DNA of 25,503 nt from a virus: positions 1-25,503 of IMG/VR virus record IMGVR_UViG_3300028364_000132; one strand, 5' to 3'. Both the position numbers and the translations under genes were made by a program. This document shows positions 66 through 16,278 of the stretch, one piece after another (the first letter of the stretch is position 1; each line of letters opens with the position of its first letter). Under the pieces are notes generated by a model. That model saw only the letters and a list, made by a program, of their open reading frames with translations. It had not been told where the DNA came from and did no database searches.

Positions 66-1025
66 ATGGCACAGCCAACCAACACACTCGACAGCTACGA
101 CGTAAAGGGTATCCGCGAGGATCTTTCAGATTCGATTTATGACATCTCGCCGGAGGAAACCCCGTTTTACTCCAGCATGGCGAAGGTAAAAGCCACCAAC
201 ACCTACCACGAGTGGCAAACTGACGCCCTCCGCGCGTCTGCCGCAAATGCGCACATTGAGGGCGACGATACTGTCGCCGAAGCTCGCAGTGCGACAAGCC
301 GCCTCGGTGATTACACGCAGATTTTCAAAAACTCTGTTGTTATCCCCGGCACTGATGACGGCTTGAACAAAGCGGGCCGCGCTAAAGAAATGGCCTATCA
401 AGTCCTGAAGATTGCCAAGGAGCAAAAGCTTGATATTGAAAAGGCCATGTTTGCAAACAACGCTCGCGTTGCTGGCAGTTCGACCGCTGCCCGCGAGCTT
501 GCTGGCGCTCCGGCATGGCTGACAACCAACGTGCTTTTTGGTGCAAACGAAGGCGCAAGCCCAACCGGCGACGGCACTGACGCTCGGACTGACGAAACCT
601 CGACTTTGATTGCGTTTTCCCAAGCGCGGTTTGATAGCGTGATGCAGTCAATCTGGACCGCAGGTGGCAAGCCCGATACTGTTTATCTGTCCAGCTACCA
701 GATGAACAAGGCGCTTGCATTCACGGGTGCCAACAACCAGCGCGCCAATATAGAGGCCACAAAGGACGAAGTTCGCAACGCAATGGTGGTCTATGTGACG
801 CCGTGGGGCGCTGTGACGTTCAAGCCGACACGCGAAAACCGCAGCCGCGACATCTTTATCATGCAGAATGATATGTGGTGCGCTGGCGTTCTGCGCGCGA
901 CGAAAAACGAAATGCTTGCGAAGACTGGCGATAACGAAAAGCGCCAAGTCGTGACCGAGCTGACGCTTGTGTGCAAGAACGAGGCCGCTTCCGGCGGCTT
1001 GTTCGACAACACGATCACAGGCTAA
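66..1025 (+). CDS. Major capsid protein, SU10-like family
   Basis: This 319-residue protein is recognised as the major head subunit of the SU10 major-capsid family, which is an HK97-fold lineage. The N-terminus (residues about 8-50) has the typical run of a short acidic start followed by a 'D(I/L)SPEETPFYSS' type segment, then a W near residue 50 and an alternating polar stretch. The length fits the family, roughly 300-350 residues. The ATG at 66 is preceded by AGGA at 55-58, a modest ribosome site. The next gene follows after a hairpin at 1032-1053 that could limit read-through, as expected for the most abundant virion protein. The protein would form the icosahedral shell, with assembly driven by the gene that ends just upstream. 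Confidence 0.9.
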   Translation: MAQPTNTLDSYDVKGIREDLSDSIYDISPEETPFYSSMAKVKATNTYHEWQTDALRASAANAHIEGDDTVAEARSATSRLGDYTQIFKNSVVIPGTDDGLNKAGRAKEMAYQVLKIAKEQKLDIEKAMFANNARVAGSSTAARELAGAPAWLTTNVLFGANEGASPTGDGTDARTDETSTLIAFSQARFDSVMQSIWTAGGKPDTVYLSSYQMNKALAFTGANNQRANIEATKDEVRNAMVVYVTPWGAVTFKPTRENRSRDIFIMQNDMWCAGVLRATKNEMLAKTGDNEKRQVVTELTLVCKNEAASGGLFDNTITG

Positions 1026-7413: not shown

Positions 7414-7816
7414 AGAGCCACTCCCCAAACGCTTCCCATGCAGCATCGCATCCCAGCGCCACGCAGGCAAACGCGCCGCTATCTGCGGCTGCGGTTAGGT
7501 ATGGCAATTGACCGGGCTGGAATTTGCATTTCGTGTGGTCGCGGCGCTTCATCTCACAAACAAACGTGACCCGCGCCGGAATGATGATATCAGACGCCCC
7601 CGGCGTCATGCCCTCAGCCTTATCCATCGCCATTTGCCCACGGCTCCGCTTGCCTTCGTTTTTTACGTGGATGGCAAGCGCGCCCCATGTTTCGGGGTAT
7701 TCCCGCCGGATGCGGTTGAAGAACGTCACTTGCTCAATGCTTTCCGGCGCGCACTTGCCGCGAAACCCGGGGTTGCCAAACAGGAGGACGTTGTGGGGGA
7801 TGTCAGATAGCTTCAT
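7400..7816 (-). CDS. VRR-NUC family nuclease
   Basis: A 138-residue single-domain nuclease of the PD-(D/E)XK superfamily. Visible are E28-Q29 in the first helix, D76 in 'GASDIIIP' and E88-x-K90 in 'VCEMKRRD', with 'HVKNEGKR' and 'QPGQLPYL' as family signs. VRR-NUC enzymes cut structured DNA such as junctions and flaps (known for the family). I chose the ATG at 7816, which overlaps the helicase end; an upstream ATG at 7843 adds nine residues inside the helicase. In this operon it would resolve branched recombination or replication intermediates. Confidence 0.85.
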   Translation of the reverse strand: MKLSDIPHNVLLFGNPGFRGKCAPESIEQVTFFNRIRREYPETWGALAIHVKNEGKRSRGQMAMDKAEGMTPGASDIIIPARVTFVCEMKRRDHTKCKFQPGQLPYLTAAADSGAFACVALGCDAAWEAFGEWLYAME

Positions 7817-9611
7817 CTTGGTCCGCCTCTTTGTTATATGCAAACACGTTGTAGAATTTAGTTTCCGCGTCTTTTTTATAGGTCACGGTTTTGGGCGTGC
7901 CATCCTCTATTGCCCGCTGGAATGTTGCCCAGTCGGCTTGCTGGCGCGGGTATTGTGAGTTCGGATTGAACCACACCGAAAAAGACCGCCATGGCGTTAC
8001 AAAATCAGCGCGCACGGTAGGGTTTCCACGTTGCGAAACCCCATCCCGCACGTCTAGAGAAATCACTTCATCCGTTTGCTTTTCTGTGGGCGTGCGCTTG
8101 ATCCGTGCGAATTCCTCACGCAGCCTTGTGTTCGGGTCAACTATCTCTCCCTTGCACTCAATGCAGTATCGCGCCGCAATATCGTTAGGCGCATCACACT
8201 GCGGGCACTCCTTGAACGTCCAGCGATAGCCGCACCGATCATACTGGCCCTTACGTCCGACCTGCACCATGCCACAGCAACGCCTGCCATGGTGGGCGGA
8301 TAGCGGGCCGAAGTCCGTCTGCACTTGCTGGCCGTCCAGATCGAGGCAATATCCCGCCTCGTCACGCTCATAATCCAGATGTTTGACGTTGGCTGAAAAC
8401 GTGTTTTCATATGCGCACTCAGGGCACACAGCGGCCATGCCTGTGCCTTCGGTGCCAAGTCCGGCTTTCACCACTGGCGAAAACAAATCCCCATCGGGGA
8501 AGTGGGTTTTTATATTGTCAGCGAAATCCAGCCATAATGACCTTAGTTTTTGACTATCCAGACGCCAAGCACGTCCTAAAATTTGCTGTATTAGCGCAAC
8601 GCTTTCTGACCTTCTAAGGGTGGCGATTAGCGATGTATGCTCTACGTCAAAGCCTGTGGTTAGCGCTCCAACTGAAACTAAAAACTTGAATTTCTGTGCG
8701 CGGTATGATGCAATGACCGCCTTTCGGCCTGTTAACGCGCCGCCCATTGCAGATGATTCATTCCCCGTAACAAACCCCGAGTTACTCGGAGGCAGGCTTT
8801 CCATTATCTCCATGGCGTGCTGAATAGTGGCCGCAAAGATCATGCACCCGCCATACATGTTCCGCGCCACGTCGACCACAGACGAAACAATGTTTGATGT
8901 CAGACGGCTTTGCCCCTCAAATGTTTGGTACAGGCTTTCATCTGTGAACCTCCCGCCCTTGGATACAAGCGCAGAAGTGTCATAGCTCTGATCTGCCGCG
9001 CCAATGTCCATGGGCGTGATGTAACCCTGACTAAGCATTTCTTGCCCAGAAACCTGTATGACGCACTTTGTAAAATACGGGTTACGGCAAACGCCAGCAT
9101 CATTCACCTTTCCGTTGGGCTGGATTTTAAATATGTATCCATCGCCAAGCCGGTAGGGAGTGCCAGACAGGCCCACCACGCGCAAGTTGGGGTTGCCCTC
9201 CCGCATTGCATCTATAATGCCCCGTATGGTCGGGGTTGTGCCGTGGCACTCATCAATTATGACTGCTCCATATCCATCTTGGAATCGGCTAATGCGGTTT
9301 TTTACAGTGCCGGGAGTGCCGAAAACAACTTTGTGCCTCAAATCCTTTCGGCCCGCACTGGCGCTAAACATTGAAAATGGCTGGCCAGTCATGGCAAACT
9401 TTTCCGAGTTCTGCAAAACCAATTCAGCGCTTGGCGCGAGGCAAAGTATTTTCTTTCCACCGCTCATTTTGTGAATCGTCTCGGCAAGCATTGCAATGAT
9501 AAACGATTTACCCGCAGCAGGTGCAGCGTCAATCAAGCACGGGTCAATGCTATTTTTTATTTCAGTTATAACTGCATCGTGGGCTGACTGTTGATATGGG
9601 CGCGGTATCAT
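7803..9611 (-). CDS. Superfamily 2 DNA helicase with C-terminal zinc ribbons
   Basis: A 602-residue DEAD/DEAH-type helicase. Motifs in order: the Q-like 'RPYQQ' (residues 4-8), Walker A 'APAAGKS' (30-36), 'DECH' (120-123), 'SGTPYR' (149-154), motif V around 'TTGFD' (318-322) and motif VI 'QQILGRAWR' (342-350). The C-terminal part has cysteine pairs CPEC (396-399), CC (445-446), CPQC (469-472) and CIEC (483-486), which should bind zinc. The start at 9611 is in an ATGA overlap with the RNase H stop; an ATG at 9650 is longer but inside that gene. It resembles phage helicases acting in recombination or fork restart. The last 115 residues are of unclear fold. Confidence 0.9.
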   Translation of the reverse strand: MIPRPYQQSAHDAVITEIKNSIDPCLIDAAPAAGKSFIIAMLAETIHKMSGGKKILCLAPSAELVLQNSEKFAMTGQPFSMFSASAGRKDLRHKVVFGTPGTVKNRISRFQDGYGAVIIDECHGTTPTIRGIIDAMREGNPNLRVVGLSGTPYRLGDGYIFKIQPNGKVNDAGVCRNPYFTKCVIQVSGQEMLSQGYITPMDIGAADQSYDTSALVSKGGRFTDESLYQTFEGQSRLTSNIVSSVVDVARNMYGGCMIFAATIQHAMEIMESLPPSNSGFVTGNESSAMGGALTGRKAVIASYRAQKFKFLVSVGALTTGFDVEHTSLIATLRRSESVALIQQILGRAWRLDSQKLRSLWLDFADNIKTHFPDGDLFSPVVKAGLGTEGTGMAAVCPECAYENTFSANVKHLDYERDEAGYCLDLDGQQVQTDFGPLSAHHGRRCCGMVQVGRKGQYDRCGYRWTFKECPQCDAPNDIAARYCIECKGEIVDPNTRLREEFARIKRTPTEKQTDEVISLDVRDGVSQRGNPTVRADFVTPWRSFSVWFNPNSQYPRQQADWATFQRAIEDGTPKTVTYKKDAETKFYNVFAYNKEADQDEAI

Positions 9612-10039: not shown

Positions 10040-10908
10040 GTGAACTTCCACCCATTGCTATCCTTGCCCCGATACGGCTCCAAATCAAAATCAGGCGCGG
10101 CAACGGCAAGAGCTTTTGCATAGGCCACAGACCCGGCCCGCTTGACCAGCGTTAGTTTGCGCCCCGCGATTGTCGCGCTTTTGCCGCCACCGATACGCAC
10201 CATTTCGGCCAGAACCTCGGCGCGCCTTTCCTTGGCGGCATCCATCGCGTCCGACAGTTCGTCGTATTCACGTACCAGACGCACGGCTTCCGGCGTGTCA
10301 ATCTCCGTGCGCTTTGGCCCTTCGTGTTCGGCAGGATCGGCAGCGCGGGCGGTTTCCCATGCGGCGCGCAGGATAGGCATGTTTTCCGCAATCCACTCTG
10401 CGTCTGCCGTGACTAATTCTAGATTTGTCCCGTGTGGCGACCACTGGAAAAAGTGGCACCACTCTCGCCCAGTGCAAAATAGCTGCACCTGAATTTGCGC
10501 ATAATATTGCGGCTGGTCTTTGATGCTTTTGAACTCAGGCGGTCTTTTCTTGCGCTGGCCGAACGGGCATTTTATTTCTAAAAGCCCATCGTGTTCGATC
10601 AGCCCGTCCGGTGAAGCGCCAAGCCAATCACCATGAGGCGCAAACGCCAGCGGCGTGACCGTGTTACCCGTCTCCATCTGATACTCGACCAGCGCGCCTT
10701 CCTCGTGGAATGTGCCATACTCAGTCGCCACGTTGGAAAAATAATCGTTCCCAATGCCATGTATATCACGCACCAATTGCCTAAACGCTTCCTCCGGTTT
10801 CATAAACGGCGAAACTCCAAGAAACGCCCCTGCTCGACTTGCGGTTATTCTACCACGCCTCGCCTCAAACCACGATTCCGACCTTTGCTCAAGAATTGAA
10901 GTATTCAA
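10036..10908 (-). CDS. YqaJ-family recombination exonuclease
   Basis: A 290-residue protein. The YqaJ/lambda-exonuclease-like nuclease covers residues 1-190: 'RSESWFEARRGRITAS' near the start, 'YGTFHEEG' (64-71), 'GASPDG' with D101, and 'LLEIKCPFG' with E111 and K113. Such enzymes resect DNA ends to make 3' single strands for annealing. Residues 200-250 form a charged helix, and the last 45 a small extra domain. The start is a TTG at 10908, because motifs begin immediately after it and the next ATG is at residue 36. GGAG seven bases upstream supports it. That ribosome site lies inside the end of the endonuclease gene, which overlaps by 20 bases. Confidence 0.88.
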   Translation of the reverse strand: MNTSILEQRSESWFEARRGRITASRAGAFLGVSPFMKPEEAFRQLVRDIHGIGNDYFSNVATEYGTFHEEGALVEYQMETGNTVTPLAFAPHGDWLGASPDGLIEHDGLLEIKCPFGQRKKRPPEFKSIKDQPQYYAQIQVQLFCTGREWCHFFQWSPHGTNLELVTADAEWIAENMPILRAAWETARAADPAEHEGPKRTEIDTPEAVRLVREYDELSDAMDAAKERRAEVLAEMVRIGGGKSATIAGRKLTLVKRAGSVAYAKALAVAAPDFDLEPYRGKDSNGWKFT

Positions 10909-11662
10909 TTTTTATCTCCATCATTTGTGTTTTTGAAAAAACTCTAAATTCTGTGCTTCCGTCAAAGTTGCCTACGTTTACCGGAGACCCAATTGACAAT
11001 ATTTTTTGCTCTACTTTTCTTGCGTTTTTATCGTTTCTAAAGTATGAAAACTCGCAGGATATTGGAGATTTATTATTGACGTATCCAATGCGCCAATCAC
11101 CAAGCCTCTTTGACGTTATTCCCACCTTGCAAACAAAATTTTCAAGAAACTCTTGCCCCCAAATATACACAACGTCTGCATCTGTTAGGGGCCTGTTCAT
11201 GTGGGCGCATACGCATTCTAGAATCCCAAGCCTTGCCGCAGCTTCATACGCTCCAGAAGATGATTCACAAAAAAGTGATCTGGTTTTGTATTTTAACGCC
11301 TCATTCTTGCATGTGTCTTTTGACCATATGCCTCTGGTTTTAGGCGGAGGCATCTTTAGGGTAATACGGTTCAAAATACCTTTTTTTGAGGCAGCCATAT
11401 ACTCAGACGGAAAATTATTTTTAAATTCACTTCGTGTATTAGATGACATTGCAGCGCGGGCAATTTCACAAAAGTGAAGGTGGTGACGCTTTTTAGGGCC
11501 ACCATGCTTAAAGACTGTAAAAGCAGAATTTTCAGCACAGCAATCAACGCACGCAAAAGCTGATGTATACCTATTGCAAACATGCCCGCGCGGACACGGC
11601 TTGCCCGTAAAATAATGCTTCAAGCCTAAATCTAAAGCTGATTTTCTGGTGATAATTTTCAT
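10889..11662 (-). CDS. GIY-YIG-type endonuclease with zinc finger and tandem repeats (homing-type)
   Basis: A 257-residue protein. Residues 5-45 hold a zinc-binding motif (C23-P-R-G-H27 ... C38-V-D-C41) typical of phage HNH/GIY-YIG proteins. Residues 65-104 and 118-155 are two related helical repeats ('TRSEF...YMAASKKGIL' and 'TRSLF...YEAAARLGIL'), probable DNA-binding modules. Residues 163-257 resemble the T5orf172/Mug113 branch of GIY-YIG nucleases, with 'VYIWG', 'KVGITSKRL' and a candidate catalytic E218 in 'ARKVEQKIL'. The gene is markedly AT-rich (about 36% GC in 10921-11100 by hand count) against its neighbours, has a strong GGAGG site, and splits the recombination operon. These are the signs of a free-standing homing endonuclease that arrived recently. 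Confidence 0.82.
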   Translation of the reverse strand: MKIITRKSALDLGLKHYFTGKPCPRGHVCNRYTSAFACVDCCAENSAFTVFKHGGPKKRHHLHFCEIARAAMSSNTRSEFKNNFPSEYMAASKKGILNRITLKMPPPKTRGIWSKDTCKNEALKYKTRSLFCESSSGAYEAAARLGILECVCAHMNRPLTDADVVYIWGQEFLENFVCKVGITSKRLGDWRIGYVNNKSPISCEFSYFRNDKNARKVEQKILSIGSPVNVGNFDGSTEFRVFSKTQMMEIKIEYFNS

Positions 11663-11692
11663 TATAAAACCTCCGTCAAAGGGCGTCTATTT

Positions 11693-11746
11693 AAGCGAGG
11701 CAGGCAGTGACGAACTGCTTTTCAACTGGCCAGTCTAGCCTCGCTT
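11693..11746 (-). other. Structured RNA/DNA leader before the endonuclease gene
   Basis: AAGCGAGGC (11693-11701) pairs perfectly with GCCTCGCTT (11738-11746). Inside lie a second hairpin GCAGT/ACTGC (11704-11708 with 11714-11718, five-base loop) and a 10-base palindrome ACTGGCCAGT (11725-11734). No T tract follows on either strand, so it is not a simple terminator. It fills nearly all of the only sizeable gap in this operon, 30 bases before the endonuclease ribosome site. Confidence 0.6.
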
Positions 11747-13273: not shown

Positions 13274-13456
13274 GTGCTAGATATAGATGAAATTCGCAAA
13301 TCTCTACAAGATAGGGTAATCACCGCAGTCTCTACGCAGACGGGGGTTGACCGAAACACCATTGCAGCGATCAAAAGCGGGCAGGCGGTCAACCCGTCAC
13401 ATCGCACAATCAAGGCGCTGTCAGATTATTTGGCCCCGGCACAGCGCCATGACTGA
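13274..13456 (+). CDS. Cro-like helix-turn-helix regulator
   Basis: A 60-residue protein starting at a GTG with AAGGA eight bases upstream. Residues about 15-50 give an XRE-type helix-turn-helix ('VITAVSTQTGVDRNTIAAIKSGQ' followed by 'SHRTIKALSDYL'). Such minimal proteins act as Cro-like regulators of early promoters. It is the first gene of the rightward replication operon and faces the divergent recombination operon across the control region, so it may balance the two. Confidence 0.68.
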   Translation: MLDIDEIRKSLQDRVITAVSTQTGVDRNTIAAIKSGQAVNPSHRTIKALSDYLAPAQRHD

Positions 13457-13787
13457 CATCGCCCAACAGACCTACTACGGCCTATGCGACATATACCGCC
13501 ATGACGCGGAGTTGTGCATCGGCACGGTATCGGCGTTTCTGGAGCAGCACAGTGCAGGCGTGCCTGACGTGCCGTTGTTTTCCGAGCAGGTCAGGCAAGA
13601 CGCTTTGTTCTGGGCTTCTATCGCAGCGCCGCACGAGCTGGAAGCATATGCCGTTGCATCGCTCGACGCCTTGGAAAACAGCATCGTGGCGCACAAGCAA
13701 ACGAAGCGCCTTGCCGCTGCCGCATTTAGGCGCATGGCACCCGATGACAGGATCAAATTTTTAAGGTGGGCAGAAAATGAGCGCTAA
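13449..13787 (+). CDS. Unknown helical protein before the primase/helicase
   Basis: A 112-residue protein, predicted mostly helical, with 'ALFWASIAAPHELEAYAVASLDAL' in the middle and a basic C-terminal third. The ATG overlaps the Cro-like gene by eight bases and the stop lies inside the next gene by 11 bases. Its place beside a DUF3987-type gene suggests a replication accessory such as a loader, but no sequence motif supports that. Confidence 0.6.
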   Translation: MTDIAQQTYYGLCDIYRHDAELCIGTVSAFLEQHSAGVPDVPLFSEQVRQDALFWASIAAPHELEAYAVASLDALENSIVAHKQTKRLAAAAFRRMAPDDRIKFLRWAENER

Positions 13788-15300
13788 AACATTCAATCTC
13801 GCAGACTATGCAACGGGGAAGAGCTACGACGAAACGCAAGACGATCTTGCCCAAGCCCGCGTCTCTGCCGTTGCATCGCTAAAAGATGACGACTTTTCAG
13901 ACTTCAATGAGGAATTTTTTCCACAGAAGTTTGCGCCGGAGCCGGAGCATTTAGAAGATGACGGCTTTGCCCTGCCTATCGACGTGACAGGCGTAGACCT
14001 CACCCGCCCGCCGGGGTTCGTGGGCAGGGTAGCGGATTGGATTGACGGTCAGTGCCGATATCCTCGACGCAGGCTTGCGGTTGCCAGCGCGATCACGGCC
14101 ATAGGCAACATCGGCGGAATGTCACACTATGACACGCACGACGGCGTGACGGCGAACATGCTGTCTTTTTGCGTAGCGGCATCCAGCACGGGCAAAGAAG
14201 CCGTTATGCAGGCTTTTACAGAACTGCACATCGCGGCGGGAATGCAGGGCGCGATACAGGGCGGGATCAAAAGCGAACAAGAGATCGTGCGGAACCTGAT
14301 CGAGAACCAAGCGTCATTCTACAACATTGACGAGATCGGTATTTTCCTGAGCAAGGTGCGCAACGCTCAACAGCGCGGCGGTGCATCATACCTAGAGGGC
14401 GTGTTCGGCACAATTATGAACGCCTATTCAAAAGCAAACAGCCGCTTTTTGCTTGGCGGCGATATCAAGCGGGATCTGCGCAAGGCGTATTTCGGCCAGC
14501 TATCCAAGGCCCAAGACAGCGGGGACGTAGAGCGGGAAGAATATGCGGCTCGGATGCTGGGCATGGTAGACAACGGGCTGGAGCGGCCATTCTTGTCAAT
14601 CATCGGTTTTACGACGCCATCGACGTTCGAGGGTGTAATGGATGGTGAAACCGCGACGCAGGGCTTTGTCGGGCGCGCTATTATTGTAGCGGAGCGAGAC
14701 ATAAACCCGCGCCCGCGCAAGAGCTTCAAAAAGATCGACATGCCGATAATGATGGGCGGCAAGCTGGGCGTGATCTACGGCAACGAAGCGGGCCGTGTGG
14801 AGCATGTAGGGCCACGCAAGGACGTTACCACCACGCCAGAGGCGGCAGAGGCGCTGGACGCCATCATAGAGTGGCTGATCGACTATGCCGGACACATGGA
14901 TGAAAAGACGGGCGAGGCCAGCGTGGCGATGATCAGGCGCGCCTATGAATTGATTGCGAAGGTAAGTTTCATTCTGGCAATCCCGGACGGCATCCGCACG
15001 ATGGATCATGTCCGATGGGCGTTTGCATTTATCAAGGACGAGATTGATTTCAAGGTTCAGCTTGTCTTTGCCAACGACAACAAAAAGGCGCGCCCTGAGG
15101 ACGCGCTGGCGGCTCGATTGATGAACTACATCGACACGGAAAACGGGGCATCTACGGCGGTGCTGGCGAGCAGGTCAAAGATTGATAAGCCGACGATTGA
15201 AACCACGATGGGGCACTTGGAAGGGCGCGGTGAAGTGGTGTCGAGGGCCGGAAAGCGACGGCGAAAAGGCGAGATTGTGGTTCAGTGGTTCCGAACATAG
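13777..15300 (+). CDS. DUF3987-type primase/helicase ATPase
   Basis: A 507-residue protein. Residues 1-75 are acidic and probably flexible. A DUF3987-like RecA-fold ATPase follows: 'RPPGFVGRVADWIDG' near 77, Walker A variant 'ASSTGKE' with K140, and Walker B 'FYNIDEIG' with D185-E186. Residues about 430-507 look like a winged helix ('LASRSKIDKPTIETTMGHLEGRGEV'). Proteins of this family occur in phage and plasmid replication modules as helicases, often with a primase half that is not obvious here. The gene overlaps the one before it and is followed by a strong terminator and the AT-rich region, so it may act on an origin there. Confidence 0.78.
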   Translation: MSAKTFNLADYATGKSYDETQDDLAQARVSAVASLKDDDFSDFNEEFFPQKFAPEPEHLEDDGFALPIDVTGVDLTRPPGFVGRVADWIDGQCRYPRRRLAVASAITAIGNIGGMSHYDTHDGVTANMLSFCVAASSTGKEAVMQAFTELHIAAGMQGAIQGGIKSEQEIVRNLIENQASFYNIDEIGIFLSKVRNAQQRGGASYLEGVFGTIMNAYSKANSRFLLGGDIKRDLRKAYFGQLSKAQDSGDVEREEYAARMLGMVDNGLERPFLSIIGFTTPSTFEGVMDGETATQGFVGRAIIVAERDINPRPRKSFKKIDMPIMMGGKLGVIYGNEAGRVEHVGPRKDVTTTPEAAEALDAIIEWLIDYAGHMDEKTGEASVAMIRRAYELIAKVSFILAIPDGIRTMDHVRWAFAFIKDEIDFKVQLVFANDNKKARPEDALAARLMNYIDTENGASTAVLASRSKIDKPTIETTMGHLEGRGEVVSRAGKRRRKGEIVVQWFRT

Positions 15301-15313
15301 CCGAAGCAGAAAG

Positions 15314-15338
15314 ACCCGCCCGAAATGGCGGGTTTTTT
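15314..15338 (+). terminator. Rho-independent terminator of the replication operon
   Basis: ACCCGCC (15314-15320) pairs with GGCGGGT (15327-15333) over a CGAAAT loop, followed by T residues to 15338. It isolates the replication genes from the AT-rich region. Confidence 0.9.
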
Positions 15339-15747
15339 GTTTTTTGGGCCAAAACCCCTAAAGTAGAACCATAAGTAGAAGGAAATTCTACTTTTAAGCC
15401 TATGAGGTTAAAGGGTAAATGGGCTTAGTTAAGAAGTTTTAGTTAGAACCCTTAGATACATTTATAAAAAGCCCCTGAGCCTCTCTGAACCTCTTGAAAA
15501 ACAGTATATAGATGTCTCTACATATCTATCTATAGTGTATTAACCAATGATTTCAGGGATTTAAAAGTAGAATTTGATTCTAACTACGTCTTAAGTTTCT
15601 ACTTAGCGTTTAAGTCGTAATGACGCTTGCACCATCGCAAATCTAATGCCAGTATTCAGGAGCGCGGCTAGGTTATGCAGACCAAACATCGGAACCTCCC
15701 CCGACCGCCGCGCGCATTCTCAGGGAGCCGTGATAGGAGATCACACA
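15339..15747. other. Gene-free AT-rich region, candidate replication origin
   Basis: No convincing gene lies in these 409 bases. Bases 15361-15600 are about 32% GC by hand count, far below the flanking genes. The stretch holds the AAGTAGAA repeats, a TAAGCC/GGCTTA inverted pair near 15395-15427, and a TATAGAT/ATCTATA-rich segment around 15505-15535. From about 15660 the composition returns to normal and leads to a TAGGAGA ribosome site for the next gene. Confidence 0.5.
15361..15604. repeat. AAGTAGAA iteron-like repeats, five perfect copies
   Basis: AAGTAGAA occurs on the plus strand at 15361-15368, 15373-15380 and 15565-15572, and inverted (TTCTACTT) at 15386-15393 and 15597-15604. Near matches lie at 15441-15448 (AGTTAGAA) and 15578-15587 (TTCTAACTAC). 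The copies form two clusters flanking about 170 bases of AT-rich DNA. Confidence 0.65.
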
Positions 15748-16278
15748 ATGCAACTCGAAGCAGGTAAATTCTACACGAACGGCGACGGCCAAAAGGTTGG
15801 ACCGATGCGGCTTACACAATGCAACGACGGGTTCCACTGGTCCGATCCTAATAGCGTGAATTACTTTACTGACGCAGGCCAGTGCGACGATGGTCAGATA
15901 TACGGCCTAATCGCAGAATGGACCGACACCCCCACAATATGGGAAAACATGACGCCGGAGCAAAAGGGCGCGCTGTTGCTGGCGGAGTTTGAGGGTGAGG
16001 CGATTGAGGTAATTGACCCGAAAGAACCGGGTGACAAGTGGTGTGTTATTTTGGACGTTAGATTTGATTCCCCCAACATGGCATACCGCATCAAGCCAGA
16101 ACCAAAGCGCGAGACAATGACGCTGCATGGCCGCATGCATATCTCAAATGCCTACCCCGAGGGCGTTTTTAATGCCAATCGCAACCCACTGCGCGCAGGC
16201 GACACCCACCGCATCACATTTGACACAATCGACGGCGAACCTGACTGCGCCACGATCCGCATGGAGCGCCTGACATGA
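15748..16278 (+). CDS. Unknown two-part protein
   Basis: A 176-residue protein. Residues 1-60 contain 'GKFYTNGDGQKVGPMR' and a dip of aromatic and acidic residues, a pattern of small phage domains of unknown role. The middle is helical (MTPEQKGALLLAEFEGEAIEVI), and residues 120-176 form a beta-rich end. TAGGAGA eight bases before the ATG is one of the strongest ribosome sites here; the longer frame from 15646 lacks one. It opens the second rightward early/middle operon. Confidence 0.65.
   Translation: MQLEAGKFYTNGDGQKVGPMRLTQCNDGFHWSDPNSVNYFTDAGQCDDGQIYGLIAEWTDTPTIWENMTPEQKGALLLAEFEGEAIEVIDPKEPGDKWCVILDVRFDSPNMAYRIKPEPKRETMTLHGRMHISNAYPEGVFNANRNPLRAGDTHRITFDTIDGEPDCATIRMERLT

Follow-up and report, generated by a model that had tools for sequence, protein, structure and literature searches.

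The window analysed here comes from a tailed phage; this 25.5-kb fragment, taken from a linear virus record, carries the genes of a major capsid protein and a large terminase together with a replication block. The minus-strand genes of this block code for a Sak4-like annealing protein, a single-strand binding protein, a YqaJ nuclease, a ResIII helicase and an RNase H, and those on the plus strand for an HTH protein (13274-13456), a 112-aa protein and a 507-aa helicase, behind which lies an AT-rich region with short repeats (Table 1). The 112-aa hypothetical protein (13449-13784) overlaps the start of the helicase gene and is kept in nearly all relatives; it is a candidate partner, for example a helicase loader or a primase recruiter.

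Table 1. Features of the helicase gene and of the region on its 3' side (window coordinates).
Feature	Position	Strand	Remarks
Putative initiator-helicase gene, 507 aa	13777-15300	+	phrog_3022, E 8e-88; MCM-like AAA+ fold (predicted)
C-terminal winged-helix domain, residues 440-507	15094-15297	+	proposed repeat reader; AF2 model and winged-helix matches in the PDB
Terminator-like hairpin	15309-15338	+	12-pair stem, then T run; closes the helicase transcript
Left dyad arm	15353-15418		AAGTAGAA sites at 15361-15368(+), 15373-15380(+), 15386-15393(-)
AT-rich core, proposed melting region	15419-15539		34% GC; holds the near copy AGTTAGAA
Right dyad arm	15540-15611		AAGTAGAA at 15565-15572(+), TTCTACTT at 15597-15604 (site on -), near copy TTCTAACT
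int-alpA RNA match	15661-15725	+	RF02996; 37.8 bits, above the gathering score of 35.8; lies in the leader of the following gene

Five exact copies of AAGTAGAA/TTCTACTT are present in the region, and no further exact copy was found elsewhere in the 25.5-kb window. Dinucleotide shuffles of 15353-15612 held on average 0.06 copies of AAGTAGAA (maximum 2, 2000 shuffles), against the five counted. Near copies lie at 15441-15448 (AGTTAGAA) and 15578-15585 (TTCTAACT), and the stretch 15359-15598 has the lowest GC content of any 240 nt in the window (31.7% vs 54.5%); within or at the edge of the AT-rich core, 15505-15543 falls to 23% GC, with TATATAG/ATCTATCTATAG. The original prediction had described five perfect repeats in both orientations with two near copies, about 240 bases of roughly 32% GC and a terminator after the replication gene, and exact counts and positions confirmed each of these. 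It had also placed the repeats in two clusters around an AT-rich core, which is correct, and the arrangement turned out to be more ordered than that: the arms, of 66 and 72 nt, form an imperfect dyad, with an alignment score of 22 (shuffle mean 10.2) that none of 200 shuffles reached. Folded as a single DNA strand, the whole stretch gave a z of -4.3. An iteron plasmid origin, with direct repeats and a Rep initiator, was ruled out by the sites themselves, which are mixed direct and inverted and show dyad symmetry.

On the right side, the predicted interval extended to 15747. The feature in fact ends at about 15611, so that the right third is not part of it, and 15612-15748 is not empty: an int-alpA RNA match lies there, as does the leader of the gene that begins at 15748. 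This segment has 55% GC, normal for the window. Sequence matching between the window and the relative L003 stops just past the right arm and its last site, and at the int-alpA position L003 and L006 have other sequence. Considering the normal GC, the RNA match and the replacement in repeat-keeping relatives such as L003, the region from 15612 on is a separate module, which adjoins the proposed origin and lies outside it.

The 507-aa protein matched only the C-terminal 60% of phrog_3022 (positions 309-785 of 788 in the profile), and Pfam DUF3987 (PF13148) with 19.7 bits, under the gathering cut-off of 27. The structure matches of its model to DUF3987 proteins were strong and, together with the fit to phrog_3022, they relate the protein to DUF3987 in spite of the low Pfam score. 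The families of SaPI Rep (DUF927 or Primase_Cterm/D5) were ruled out, as Pfam gave the weak DUF3987 match alone. The AF2 model was built from 38 sequences (pLDDT 83) and used in place of an earlier, poor fold from 21 sequences (pLDDT 64); its N-terminal 60 residues are poorly ordered. The best PDB matches of the model were MCM helicases (E 3e-5 to 1e-3, prob 1.0, TM-score 0.3-0.4), and no significant sequence match to solved structures was found. By its predicted fold, the protein resembles a hexameric-type replicative helicase ATPase; its Walker A motif ends in GKE instead of GK[ST], which leaves some doubt about helicase activity. At the C-terminus, the model shows helices at 440-449, 460-467 and 471-483 and strands at 487-496 and 499-506, and this end matches winged-helix regulators in the PDB.

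The gene had originally been called a DUF3987-type primase/helicase. The helicase part of this description is borne out by phrog_3022 and by the MCM resemblance; the primase part is not, and the protein is probably not a primase, because the N-terminal primase part of the family is absent and the fold resembles MCM. A search of the window and of four near-complete relatives for two primase families, Prim-Pol and Toprim_3, found neither, so that priming by the host is likely. An extra N-terminal part is present in the homologues of cultured phages and in the long frames of L030 and L104, and the homologue of phage DDSR119 is annotated as primase/polymerase and Mcm7. The fusion of an N-terminal primase part in cultured-phage homologues (L119, L030 and L104 were also noted) and its absence from the window helicase allow, as a side reading, that a prim-pol domain was lost or gained within one helicase family.

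Scanning with the helicase yielded 33 viral loci; a second scan, based on an alignment, found 316 candidate relatives, of which 80 were kept. One bacterial MAG contig was also found. In nearly all of those with enough flank, an AT-rich stretch (below, for brevity, the origin) lies 3' of the helicase gene, often behind a terminator-like hairpin, and its repeat word is specific to the clade and, in many relatives, set in two inverted clusters. A comparison with relatives had been suggested as a check, with loss of the repeats from close relatives as counter-evidence; what we found is a conserved layout with clade-specific repeats that track the winged-helix end of the protein (see below), and all five copies of AAGTAGAA are kept in L002, L003, L032 and L033, with degenerate copies in L004-L007. 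More distant clades have a different word at the same place, such as TGTGTAAA, six times, in L017 and L019-L021, ATCTTAGC in L062, CTTAGTTAC in L056 and CAGAAACAC in L097, and seven of the eight words tested were absent elsewhere in their own locus. In each of four near-complete relatives, of which three have terminal repeats, the 300 nt poorest in GC across the whole genome fall within the origin. L010 carries an insert of about 570 nt (7689-8265), which looks like a gene on the minus strand, between its helicase gene and the origin; the latter is retained. GC skew, another suggested check, was computed and proved uninformative: the turning point was 2-3 kb off in three relatives and elsewhere in the fourth, and in those three it falls at divergent promoters, the skew following gene direction.

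Of 30 origins, 12 have a dyad that outscored every one of 200 shuffles, among them L014 (99-nt arms), L058, L097 and L100, and the dyad was not significant in L009, L042, L063, L078 and L079; by these simple measures, a significant dyad is missing from more than half of the origins, and a significant repeat from several. These figures bear on whether a large cruciform or stem-loop could drive the origin with the words mattering little, as proposed for pRN1, where the origin is a 100-bp stem-loop downstream of the replication gene (PMC4234260). The inverted arms and the fold z of the window would suit such a structure; however, words within an arm are also repeated in the same direction, repeats are present in several origins that have no significant dyad, and the words change together with the winged helix, which makes this explanation improbable.

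The layout is also found among cultured phages. In Pseudoalteromonas phage H103, whose protein is 45% identical, the 300 nt after the gene contain a TACTATCAA/GATAGTAG dyad with a score of 38.5 (shuffled 9.9), and in Pseudomonas phage Torfinnsbu ACAAAGCAA repeats follow the homologous gene. No such region was found directly 3' of the gene in pYD21-A, DDSR119 and CASP1 (35-45% identical). The layout thus reaches beyond the close family and is not universal. A nucleotide search of the named phages matched terminase DNA and nothing else.

To relate word to protein, two groups of phages with near-identical helicases were compared, each divided by its repeat word. The first consists of type A (L013-L016, L018; word AAGTTAGAA) and type B (L017, L019-L021; word TGTGTAAA). 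In the helicase core, the DNA distance was 0.060 within and 0.058 between word types; in the last 140 nt it was 0.058 within and 0.246 between, about fourfold, and all 11 fixed residues fall at 470-513 of 513, the C-terminal 44. The second group, from a clade whose cores share about 66% identity with the window's, consists of type C (L079, L080, L081, L088, L091, L098; ATGTAGCAA) and type D (L078, L083-L102; TGTTTACAC/TGTGTAAA). Here, the distances were 0.085 within and 0.093 between for the core, and 0.073 within and 0.26 between for the end, and again all 11 fixed residues lie at the C-terminus, at window positions 468-507. According to the model, the fixed residues of both swaps occupy the turn before and the start of the recognition helix, and the wing. 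We propose from these comparisons that winged helix and origin are a matched pair, which changes as one unit between phages.

The winged helix adjoins the origin, and linkage could carry the two together. In that case, blocks of DNA crossing the gene end would have been exchanged, and the region would have another role or none; in agreement with this, the region adjoins the gene, and a continuous block of divergent DNA begins at about nt 1350 of the helicase gene. Three observations favour function over linkage. The left border of the divergence lies at the same residues in two independent clades; within D, the GTGTAAA word is retained although the origins of L084 and L102 have diverged to 41-70%; and at the right border there is no such coupling, the same origin being followed by different genes in different phages, as in the window and L003. 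We therefore give linkage little probability.

A Mantel-type test over 39 origins, relating word similarity to winged-helix similarity and controlling for the core, gave a weak result (partial r 0.08, p 0.06); the scores of some core windows equalled that of the winged helix. The weakness is probably due to word vectors from unrelated clades all lying at much the same distance from one another, and the correlation is not supportive in itself. A KR[RK]R wing was associated with GTAG words in 4 of 7 origins and in 0 of 32 others, a post hoc count that is not independent.

The same phages speak to the reading of the sites as operators of a phage regulator, such as the HTH protein, for the genes to the right. 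Short inverted sites before a gene are typical of operators, and the HTH gene is 2 kb off. On the other hand, L014 and L018 (type A) have the same HTH protein as L019 (type B) although the repeats of A and B are unrelated, and the HTH matches in L079 and in L087/L089 score equally; being identical across word types, it is probably not the reader. Moreover, the window and L003 share the sites but have different genes to their right, and no promoter enrichment was found. Operators of this kind are, in our opinion, very improbable.

From the sites, the dyad, the AT-rich core, the conserved layout and the co-change of winged helix and word we infer that 15353-15611 is likely a replication origin, with the helicase encoded just upstream as its own initiator and the winged helix as the reader of AAGTAGAA; the comparison with relatives gives good, if indirect, support to the origin originally predicted. 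In the mechanism that we suggest, the MCM-like, DUF3987-type helicase would act on 15353-15611 as initiator, binding the short AAGTAGAA sites through its C-terminal winged helix, a role to which the co-change in two clades points. As the arms are nearly mirror images, two helicase rings could face each other over the AT-rich core, melt it, load and start bidirectional replication, with primase and polymerase presumably supplied by the host.

The winged helix might also bind the sites for a different purpose, namely autoregulation, transcription to the right, partition or packaging, and indeed co-change points to recognition and not to purpose. We consider this unlikely, given that the reader is, by its fold, a hexamer-type replicative helicase and that an AT-rich dyad with repeats is a classic form of origin; in particular, the sites lie behind the helicase terminator, which makes autoregulation unlikely, and the terminase genes are 2-3 kb off.

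Among the systems to which the proposed origin can be compared, that of P4, with its repeats and a second element, crr, is of another kind. The P4 alpha protein itself is a closer parallel, since the winged helix of this helicase binds the origin repeats, but it has a Toprim primase (PMC4234260). In SaPI Rep (Ubeda 2007, as described in PMC7581432), a C-terminal domain recognises iterons directly downstream of the protein's own gene, and the protein appears to bind as two hexamers, SCCmec Cch2 being alike (PMC7581432). The likeness consists of a replicative helicase, a C-terminal reader, putative in our case, and short iterons directly downstream of the gene; by contrast, the SaPI and SCC helicases belong to DUF927 or to D5/Primase_Cterm, whereas that of the window is MCM-like, of DUF3987 type and from a tailed phage, lacks the two primase kinds tested, and has sites forming a long dyad. 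By analogy, we propose that the window system works like SaPI Rep and P4 alpha, not that it is a member of the SaPI Rep family. In pRN1, the origin is 3' of the replication gene (PMC4234260); ORF904 shares with our protein a C-terminal winged helix, and the locus a terminator and an inverted-repeat origin directly 3', but pRN1 has an SF3 helicase with a prim-pol, and a single stem-loop with no iterons. The DUF3987/PrimQH helicases of mobile elements have the same ATPase type and a C-terminal winged helix, for which a role in origin recognition was suggested with no origins at hand (Kazlauskas 2018, PMC5862659); what was speculation there is extended here by proposed cognate sites, tied to the winged helix by natural swaps. 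New in the present system are the type of helicase, the long dyad and the evidence from natural swaps.

These results bear on how DUF3987-type phage helicases find their origin, for which a role of the winged helix had previously only been suggested. The swaps point to a domain and to residues, and provide matched and mismatched pairs; in addition, the layout could serve as a straightforward guide to the origins of many phages not yet cultured and of some in culture (H103). It is conceivable, though we advance it tentatively, that origin 'alleles' are interchangeable in wild phages, winged helix and dyad being replaced together while the rest of the replication gene is shared, because with different addresses co-infecting relatives or parasites could not use each other's initiator. 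If so, the natural pairs would give a readable recognition code, such as KR[RK]R wing and GTAG words, and the exchange of origins would matter more widely, as a unit of phage evolution.

Some minor observations concern the core and the right-hand neighbours of the origin. A clade-invariant second word was searched for, and only AAGCCTTTG and the AT-rich words TAGATACAT and TATCTATAT were slightly above shuffles. Irrespective of the repeat word, origins of different clades have a similar string in their centre (CCCTTAGACACATAAAAAGAGCC in L011; also L017, L046, L062 and others, and 15449-15475 in the window); words from it are only slightly above shuffles, and it may serve them all as a melting or primer site. 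The int-alpA RNA (RF02996) occurs a second time in the window, at 11683-11745(-), and in relatives (L002 2231-2295; L026 10529-10596). Both window matches lie in leaders of variable genes, at module borders and with neither int nor alpA next to them, and the RNA may be a mobile leader or promoter element of cargo genes; the gene behind the second match (10889-11662, minus strand), with a low GC of about 42%, looks like recently acquired cargo. In L003, L006, L012-L016 and L018, the first gene past the origin codes for a small protein (M.IEKNIP..GR.NKYQW..ME.GDSVFF), which is present in many phages and exchanges with int-alpA-led genes.
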